Positions 29,043-32,074 of a DNA stretch of 64,000 bases are shown one piece after another. Both the position numbers and the translations under genes were made by a program. Under the pieces are notes generated by a model. The model was given only the letters and a program-made list of their open reading frames with translations, was not told the DNA's origin and searched no databases. Numbering within the stretch: position 1 is the first letter of the stretch; the number at the start of each line of letters is the position of its first letter. The stretch comes from Candidatus Enterococcus testudinis (lineage in GTDB: Bacteria; Bacillota; Bacilli; Lactobacillales; Enterococcaceae): contig NZ_NGKU01000001.1 in the NCBI RefSeq assembly GCF_002140915.1, positions 602,799 to 666,798 on the forward strand, given 5' to 3'.

Positions 29043-29116
29043 ATAATGGATACATCCAATCAACTGAAACTCTTTTGCGTATTTCTATTATAGAATATGG
29101 CAAAGGAGTTTTTTTG

Positions 29117-29797
29117 ATGACGAAAACAATTATTCCCCAAAGCTCGTTTCCTCGCGAACGGATGCTGCATTATGGGGTGGATGCATTATCAAATCAAGAA
29201 TTATTGGCGATCGTATTGCGTACCGGTGCACATCCGTTGAATGTCTTGGAATTGGCAGGGGTTATTTTGAACCGTTTTGAGAATATTTATGAACTCAAGC
29301 AAGTCACACTGGACGAGCTGCAGGAAATTCGCGGTGTTGGACAGATCAAAGCAATTGAGATCAAAGCGATGATCGAATTGGGCGGTCGGATCCAGCGAGC
29401 CGGACAACCGAAATATGGCAAAGTCAATTCCAGTATGGATATTGCGAAACATATGATGCAAGAACTGAAAGACTATCGGCAAGAACACTTACTTTGTTTG
29501 TACCTCAACACCAAGAATGAGATCATTCAGAAAAAGACCTTGTTTATTGGCTCGCTGAATCAATCGATTGCACATCCGCGAGAAATTTTTCATGGTGCAG
29601 TTCGTTGCAGCGCCGCCCGGGTGATTGCGGTCCATAACCATCCCAGTGGTAGTCCGCAACCCAGCGAGGCCGATTTGGCCTTTACACGACGCTTGATGAA
29701 GTGTGGTGAGATCATGGGCATTGATTTACTCGATCACTTGATTATAGGCGACAATGCATACGTGAGTTTGCGAGAAGAAGGGTTATGGGAGGAGTAA
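29117..29797 (+). CDS. radC: RadC family protein (JAMM/MPN+ domain)
   Basis: A 226-residue RadC protein. An N-terminal helix-hairpin-helix region (LQEIRGVGQIKAIEIKAM, near 70-87) precedes the JAMM metalloprotease-like motif HNHPSGSPQPSEAD (near 174-187). The role in DNA repair is disputed. ATG 29117 follows AAGGAG. The last 24 bases of the gene and three after it are duplicated downstream of the adapter artefact at 29801-29838. The coding frame itself is intact and has normal length. Confidence 0.95.
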   Translation: MTKTIIPQSSFPRERMLHYGVDALSNQELLAIVLRTGAHPLNVLELAGVILNRFENIYELKQVTLDELQEIRGVGQIKAIEIKAMIELGGRIQRAGQPKYGKVNSSMDIAKHMMQELKDYRQEHLLCLYLNTKNEIIQKKTLFIGSLNQSIAHPREIFHGAVRCSAARVIAVHNHPSGSPQPSEADLAFTRRLMKCGEIMGIDLLDHLIIGDNAYVSLREEGLWEE

Positions 29798-29800
29798 GTA
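29774..29800 (+). repeat. 27-base direct repeat, left copy (end of radC)
   Basis: The 27 bases at 29774-29800 are identical to 29839-29865. They include the radC stop codon (29795-29797). The repeat flanks the mosaic-end palindrome and probably reflects one genomic sequence counted twice in the assembly. Confidence 0.97.
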
Positions 29801-29838
29801 CTGTCTCTTATACACATCTAGATGTGTATAAGAGACAG
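29801..29838. other. Two synthetic Tn5/Nextera mosaic ends head to head (artefact)
   Basis: 29801-29819 reads CTGTCTCTTATACACATCT, the 19-base hyperactive Tn5 mosaic end used in Nextera libraries, and 29820-29838 is its exact reverse complement. Together they form a perfect 38-base palindrome. Natural Tn5 outer and inner ends differ from this sequence. No transposon lies between the ends. This is adapter sequence left in the assembly, not part of the genome. Confidence 0.95.
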
Positions 29839-29865
29839 GAAGAAGGGTTATGGGAGGAGTAAGTA
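29839..29865 (+). repeat. 27-base direct repeat, right copy (assembly duplicate)
   Basis: Identical to 29774-29800. A natural Tn5 insertion duplicates nine bases, so 27 argues for two overlapping library fragments joined through the palindromic adapter. Confidence 0.95.
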
Positions 29866-29879
29866 GGGTTGTTTTATAA

Positions 29880-29931
29880 TTTTGTCTAAAATAATCTTTT
29901 TATATAAAATAATTCTTTTATTTAGACAAAA
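29880..29931. promoter_or_regulatory. Inverted repeat in the AT-rich promoter region of the membrane-protein gene
   Basis: TTTTGTCTAAA (29880-29890) and TTTAGACAAAA (29921-29931) are perfect 11-base inverted arms 30 bases apart. A likely -10 (TATAAA, 29943-29948) follows. The arms could bind a dimeric or looping repressor, or form a hairpin; nothing decides between these. Confidence 0.45.
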
Positions 29932-29981
29932 ATATGCTATTGTATAAATTATCTTATGGGATGTAGAAAGTAGGATAATGG

Positions 29982-31685
29982 ATGCAGTTTTGGAAAAAAA
30001 GTCAGAATATCGGCTATGTATTGGCCTTGTTAGGGTGCGCAGTAGTTTTGGTTTTGCCGCAGATCGTCTTAGGCAGCTTAGTGATTTCATCGGATTCATT
30101 GTTTCACTTTAATCGTTTTTATGATACAGCGATGCAAATCAAGGAAGGGAATATGCAATACTTTGTCAGTTTTTACGGTTTTCAGCAGAGTGGGCGGATC
30201 GTCAATGCACTCTATGGCCCAATCATCGCGTATCTCCATGGTGGGTTGGTTGTGCTGAGTCCCAATTGGTTCTTCTATCAAGTCAGTGCCAATTTTTTGT
30301 TGTATGTTCTGGCAGGCTATTCAATGTATGGACTACTTTGTGCTTGCAGGATACGACCAGCAACGTCATGTTTGTTCAGTGTGGTCTATCTGACGACCTA
30401 TGCGATTCAATACTGGATGATGCGACAGGGATTTTCTAGTTGGGGTGCAGCGATCTTGCCCCTTTGCTTGATTCCATATATGCAATGGATGCAGACAAAA
30501 AAGTTTGACCCTTTCAAAGTGGGGATCAGTGTGGCTTTAGCTGTTCAAGTCCATCTGATGACTGCTTTGTTTGTGGGTCTGATTTATGCATTCGGATTGA
30601 TTGGGATTCTTTGGCAAAAGAAGCGAGTGGACTGGTCCTTGTGCTGGAAGATTGTACAATCGATCGTTGTATTTCTATTTTTGACTGCAAATATTTGGCT
30701 GACTATGCTGCTGATTTATCAAGGAAATACATTGTTGCCGCCCTTCATCAATCGCAATATGTATCGTAGTACAATCACCTACAATAGTACCTACTGGATA
30801 ATGACACCAACGATTTTGATTGCCGGGGTATTCTTTATGATTGGAGAAGGGGTGCTGTCTTTTCGACGGTTATCCTTTGATAGGCGCATGTTGTTTCTGC
30901 CGTTTTCGTTTTTTGTGTTGCTCAGTACCAACATTGTACCTTGGCGATTCTTGGTTGAGAATCATTTCTTCCTCGCCGAGCTGATCCAGTTTCCGTTTCG
31001 TTTCTTTATCCCGGCGACGACGTTGATGATGGTTTATTTAGCGAAGCGCTGGCAGGAAAAGGTTACGCACCGATATTGGCATCTCTTGGTGATCGTTTGT
31101 GCGGTGGGGCAGTGTTTGCTGATGAATACGGAAGCAAATTTACGTTGGCACCAATCAGAAGCGCCTTTTCAAACAAGAAAACATACAACCCATTTTTCAG
31201 AAGACATCCAACGCACCAAAGAAGCCTTCCATTCCACTGACAAACAAGCGGCTTTGCTGCTGCTTCAAAAAGGGACGCCGGATTATGTGCCGATTTATAG
31301 GGAAGATGATGCCAATAAGTATGAAGCCTATACAGAACAAATGATTCTCCCAAATGCAGATTTTGACAAAGTAGTGCAAGGCAATCAGCTGATCTTGCGT
31401 TGGCAGGGGCAAGAGGGACGACAAAGACAACTGCCTTTGATCATTTATGATCGGACAATCGTACATTTGAATGGTGCACCTCTCGAAGGTGAGTCATTAC
31501 AATTAACAACCATCGGTGCCCCTATAGTGATAGAAAATGCAGGAATGAATCAGATGACCATTGCTTATCCCACACCTCGCGGCTTTCTGGCTGTTCTATG
31601 TGTTGTATTGTTTCTTTGGCTCTTGGTGATCGGCAAATATGGCAAACGACTTGTCATACGGCAGCGTTGCTTTAAAAAATCATGA
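29982..31685 (+). CDS. GT-C-like/PTPS-related polytopic membrane protein
   Basis: A 567-residue membrane protein with roughly nine to eleven helices. After the first helix it has SSDSLFHFNRFYDT, an acidic outer-loop motif like that of GT-C glycosyltransferases and the 6-pyruvoyl-tetrahydropterin synthase-related membrane family. The C-terminal part (about 375-535) is a soluble outer domain, followed by a last helix and a basic tail (RLVIRQRCFKKS). It may transfer sugars or other groups to envelope polymers, by inference. ATG 29982 is six bases after AGGA. There are no obvious partner genes. Confidence 0.65.
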   Translation: MQFWKKSQNIGYVLALLGCAVVLVLPQIVLGSLVISSDSLFHFNRFYDTAMQIKEGNMQYFVSFYGFQQSGRIVNALYGPIIAYLHGGLVVLSPNWFFYQVSANFLLYVLAGYSMYGLLCACRIRPATSCLFSVVYLTTYAIQYWMMRQGFSSWGAAILPLCLIPYMQWMQTKKFDPFKVGISVALAVQVHLMTALFVGLIYAFGLIGILWQKKRVDWSLCWKIVQSIVVFLFLTANIWLTMLLIYQGNTLLPPFINRNMYRSTITYNSTYWIMTPTILIAGVFFMIGEGVLSFRRLSFDRRMLFLPFSFFVLLSTNIVPWRFLVENHFFLAELIQFPFRFFIPATTLMMVYLAKRWQEKVTHRYWHLLVIVCAVGQCLLMNTEANLRWHQSEAPFQTRKHTTHFSEDIQRTKEAFHSTDKQAALLLLQKGTPDYVPIYREDDANKYEAYTEQMILPNADFDKVVQGNQLILRWQGQEGRQRQLPLIIYDRTIVHLNGAPLEGESLQLTTIGAPIVIENAGMNQMTIAYPTPRGFLAVLCVVLFLWLLVIGKYGKRLVIRQRCFKKS

Positions 31686-31734
31686 AATATCTAAAAATGA
31701 TTAAAAATCAGCGAGAAAGAATTAATCTTCTGTC

Positions 31735-31763
31735 TTGCAAAAAAATATCTTCAAGTGTAAAAT
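31735..31763 (+). promoter_or_regulatory. Promoter of the cold-shock gene
   Basis: TTGCAA (31735-31740), 17-base spacer, TAAAAT (31758-31763). It leaves a long untranslated leader of about 104 bases, as expected for cold-shock mRNAs. Confidence 0.75.
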
Positions 31764-31873
31764 ATTATTGTAATTTTGTTTGCAGTATAGATGTTGAAAC
31801 GTAAGGGACACCTCTATCGCACAAAAGCAACGTTACACACAATTAAGTGCTGATGCACGAGGAGGTTTTTTTA

Positions 31874-32074
31874 ATGGAACAAGGTACAGTAAAATGGTTT
31901 AATGCTGAAAAAGGGTTTGGTTTTATCTCTCGCGAAGACGGTACAGATGTATTTGTACATTTCTCAGCTATCCAAGGTGAAGGATTCAAAACATTAGAAG
32001 AAGGTCAAGCAGTGACTTTCGACGTTGAAGATTCAGACCGCGGACCTCAAGCAGTAAACGTAAACAAAGCATAA
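31874..32074 (+). CDS. Cold-shock protein, CspA family
   Basis: A 66-residue single cold-shock domain that binds single-stranded RNA and DNA. RNP1 is KGFGFI (near 16-21) and RNP2 is VFVHFSAI (near 30-37). ATG 31874 follows GAGGAGG; the frame is open upstream but the protein begins [10 protein letters not shown] as the family does. The long leader is likely to control translation with temperature. It ends at a terminator shared with the convergent XRE gene. Confidence 0.97.

Follow-up and report, generated by a model that had tools for sequence, protein, structure and literature searches.

Directly 3' of a radC family gene, the window analysed here (64,000 bases, positions 602799–666798 of contig C1 in an assembly of 3,202,475 bases and three contigs) carries a 38-bp palindrome enclosed by two copies of a 27-bp repeat. 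Does this arrangement belong to the chromosome of the bacterium or to the making of its sequence? The palindrome consists of the 19-bp Tn5 mosaic end (CTGTCTCTTATACACATCT) followed by its reverse complement, and the whole 38-mer is thus identical to its own reverse complement. The two repeat copies agree at all 27 positions, and the bases neighbouring them on both sides differ. Both features had been claimed in a preliminary description of this DNA; the palindrome holds base by base and the repeat was found as described. Allowing up to three mismatches, the window has no mosaic-end match apart from these two (0.02 expected in shuffled sequences), and it contains no N. The palindrome and the second repeat copy are most likely a product of the laboratory and of the assembly and no part of the living bacterium. 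The features are listed in Table 1.

Table 1. Features around the palindrome (positions in the window)
Feature	Position	Strand	Basis
radC family gene, both domains matched almost over their full length, ending just before the adapter	29075–29797	+	domain searches
27-bp duplicated genomic stretch, copy 1 (last radC codons, stop codon and 3 bases)	29774–29800	+	sequence comparison
38-bp palindrome (mosaic end and its reverse complement), read as mate-pair junction adapter	29801–29838	.	sequence; match to the circularising adapter printed in the cited part of PMC7357533
19-bp Tn5 mosaic end	29801–29819	+	mismatch-tolerant pattern search
19-bp Tn5 mosaic end on the opposite strand	29820–29838	-	mismatch-tolerant pattern search
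Same 27 bases, copy 2, interpreted as the repetition of an assembly overlap	29839–29865	+	sequence; reading suggested by the variable overlaps

An identical 38-mer is printed in PMC7357533 as a biotin-labelled circularising (ring) adapter. In the passage of that paper describing the circularisation, fragments of about 4 kb, broken by ultrasound, are each circularised with this adapter, which is not termed Nextera there. According to the relevant part of the NextClip paper (PMC3928519), a transposase tags both ends of a fragment with a 19-bp biotinylated adaptor, two such adaptors become joined when the fragment is circularised, and the program searches for 38 bases made of one forward and one reverse complement copy; that part prints no sequence. 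The term "junction adapter", in the part of PMC11575248 cited here, designates ordinary Nextera read-through sequences, and the 38-mer is not printed in it. The TruSeq adapter stub, searched for as exact matches only, was not found in this genome, a result that is neutral for the library question. We take the 19-bp adaptor of NextClip to be the mosaic end found here; the joined NextClip adaptors and the ring adapter would then probably be one sequence.

A search for the mosaic end across the entire assembly had been proposed in the preliminary description. With up to two mismatches, this search gave 45 matches, all of them covered by the window together with 20 further regions, and the same pattern read backwards gave none in the whole assembly. 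The 45 matches group into 27 stretches of adapter (38 bases in 15 cases, 36–37 in three and 19 in nine), which strongly supports an untrimmed adapter. A run of N lies within 1.5 kb of seven of these stretches. Over about 500 bases around the adapter, the G+C content is 0.41 in the window against 0.27–0.34 at the other 26 stretches; therefore, the site in the window is not in an A+T-rich weak spot, a point that weighs against the adapter reading.

At nine of the 27 stretches, the flanks overlap directly, over 9, 27, 35, 42, 42, 68, 86, 95 and 106 bases, the longest overlap containing two mismatches. The control consisted of 3000 random places in the adapter regions, with N counted as a mismatch; after those containing N had been dropped, the 2669 places kept yielded two hits, both located at most six bases from an adapter. 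An overlap of at least eight bases is absent at 18 stretches, some of which are adapter clusters and others of which join flanks without visible relation. The flanks of some adapters have second copies 0.6–2.9 kb off, at no consistent mate-pair distance. Three loci (L122, L128 and L129) hold clusters of two or three adapters whose intervening pieces of 30–57 bases copy nearby sequence, and runs of N adjoin two of these three clusters.

We put at about 0.98 the probability that the palindrome is an untrimmed mate-pair library adapter retained in the assembly, where contig ends were merged and their overlap was written twice. The sequence itself, its match to a circularising adapter in print, its repeated presence in this assembly and the variable overlaps are direct observations, and we infer the library of the strain and the assembly step. 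The process can be pictured as follows: a Nextera-type mate-pair library would have supplied reads to the assembly, Tn5 transposase having cut the DNA and added a 19-base mosaic end at each fragment end. Circularisation of the fragments would then have joined two mosaic ends into the 38-bp palindrome, and the reads crossing this junction would have been left untrimmed. During contig joining or gap filling, a contig entering the adapter on the left, with its flank up to 29800, and one beginning in it, with its flank from 29839, would have been merged by way of the 38 bases that they shared, despite an existing overlap of 27 genomic bases between them. Because the merge went through the 38 bases despite this overlap, the 27 bases would appear twice around the adapter. 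The most plausible reading of the 27-bp repeat is an overlap between two contig ends that the adapter brought together, and the real genome likely runs straight from 29800 to 29866. Such a merge does not cover every site, since two thirds of the stretches (18/27) lack an overlap of this kind.

A mosaic end could also reach an assembly through ordinary paired-end Nextera read-through, two contig ends with one mosaic end each having been set head to head. In the part of PMC3906532 cited here, ordinary read-through does start with the same 19 bases, followed by one of two tails, and the single 19-mers (nine of the 27 stretches) are compatible with this origin. Such read-through should, however, continue into either tail, and neither of them, as printed in that part, has a match in the genome with up to one mismatch; moreover, a molecule carrying the whole junction would account more simply for the 15 exact 38-mers. 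Ordinary read-through, lacking a kit tail after the mosaic end, was thus rejected and is considered very improbable. The preliminary description had proposed an untrimmed library adapter, a claim that the 27 stretches in this genome and the absence of the 38-mer from five other genomes of the genus support. Its view that two fragments had been joined through untrimmed adapters stands as far as the adapter is concerned, but the 38-mer is better read as the ready-made junction of a circularised library than as two ordinary Nextera read-throughs, as the tails are absent and the joined junction exists in print. The present analysis goes beyond it on two points: a mate-pair junction is the most likely identity of the adapter, and many other places in the assembly are affected.

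Mosaic ends are made for transposition, so that a real insertion in the strain, either of engineered mosaic-end DNA or of a Tn5 relic, also has to be weighed. The mosaic end was engineered as a hybrid of the natural ends of Tn5/IS50. Tn5 duplicates nine bases of its target, and all insertions of a transposon would show a duplication of the same length. A 9-bp flank repeat occurs at only one of the 27 stretches (L136), where it also fits two neighbouring tagmentation products joined end to end; the repeat measures 27 bp in the window and 9–106 bp at the other stretches having one. The two mosaic ends of the window abut with nothing between them, which bears out the earlier claim that no transposon separates them, and the presence of 27 stretches within a single genome likewise speaks against an insertion. 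The Tnp_DNA_bind domain (PF14706) had no match genome-wide, its control being positive in E. coli, and the natural outside end of Tn5 had none in the whole genome with up to two mismatches. The missing transposase domain, the missing outside end and the variable overlaps led us to rule out a natural or engineered Tn5 insertion, the probability of which is close to nil. Equally negligible is the probability that the 38-mer is physically part of the chromosome, for instance as mosaic-end DNA without cargo that entered the strain by ligation or transposition in the laboratory.

The distribution of the 38-mer in other genomes bears on both the mate-pair junction and a real insertion. The preliminary description had named the same insertion in close relatives as evidence against an artefact; the 38-mer is found in none of the five other genomes of the genus, which are represented by one genome per species and hence include none of the same species. 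The exact 38-mer, its recurrence in the assembly and its absence from close relatives, by which a mate-pair junction was to be recognized, were all found. In the family, two of 105 genomes carry the 38-mer, namely this one and G072, in which the junction positions (e.g. C1:778419, 778919 and 778993) are the same as in Enterococcus sp. 10A9_DIV0425 (L086). With its 71 copies of the 38-mer, G072 is a heavily affected public assembly. A scan of one genome per species revealed at least 108 stretches of the 38-mer in at least 18 organisms, among the matches listed. These organisms presumably belong to several phyla, which argues against a real insertion, and some of them share a sequencing project, as judged by the record names. 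The distribution of the 38-mer therefore tracks sequencing projects and not ancestry.

The product of radC carries the RadC and UPF0758_N domains according to the domain search. The stop codon of the gene (TAA, 29795–29797) precedes the adapter by three bases and radC is therefore intact. In the 11 loci of relatives compared, blastn similarity stops at or before the radC stop, so that these loci do not display an empty site. Neither blastn (E 0.001) nor tblastx (E 1e-5) matched positions 29866–31700 of the window to these 11 loci, and the DNA 3' of radC differs from that of the window in five of them. A cold-shock gene (31847–32074 in the window) lies close to radC in 10 of the 11 loci, only part of radC being visible in the remaining one (L144). 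In another genome of the genus (G005), the radC match is divided into two halves, which are separated by about 40 kb of the same contig (C11:366872–367119 and C11:326511–326729); an insertion or a misassembly may have split the gene there.

In the interval that separates radC from the cold-shock gene, the window encodes a 567-aa protein (29982–31685, forward strand) to which no Pfam or NCBIfam model matched at E 0.001. This protein is matched in 63 of the 105 genomes of the family, its own included, and has three matches in its own genome. The corresponding interval of one relative (G003, L138 1131–1510) contains an apparent decayed remnant of the gene, in which 27 residues with 52% identity and 31 residues with 42% identity to the 567-aa protein lie in different frames; it adjoins 174 bases that are 99.4% identical to 31693–31866 of the window. 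An A+T-rich inverted repeat (29880–29931; TTTTGTCTAAA ... TTTAGACAAAA) is located between radC and the gene of the 567-aa protein and is possibly a terminator or an operator. In a genome-wide search, 17 bases taken from its left end recur nowhere exactly, once with one mismatch and seven times with two.

The palindrome appears to be without biological meaning and serves as a data-quality warning for an assembly that holds 27 such stretches. Searches for promoters, repeats or palindromes 3' of radC should disregard the adapter together with one of the two repeat copies. Elsewhere in the assembly, genes may seem interrupted or include a foreign peptide, because the 38-mer contains a stop codon in two of its three reading frames and the remaining one gives VSYTHLDVYKRQ.

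Compared with known systems, the locus differs from Tn5/IS50 in having no transposase domain, no cargo, no fixed 9-bp duplication and no outside end. Other public assemblies, such as that of Enterococcus sp. 10A9_DIV0425, carry the same 38-mer inside their sequences; overlapping flanks are likewise seen at 20 of the 132 listed external junctions (over 8–158 bases, two of 134 having been excluded for flanks under 20 bases), but the other 112 show no simple overlap. The closest likeness is with the circularisation junction of Nextera-type mate-pair libraries which, in the passages cited above, comprises the same 38 bases, formed where circularisation brings two 19-base adapters head to head; here, this junction lies inside an assembled contig instead of a read, and its flanks repeat 27 bases.
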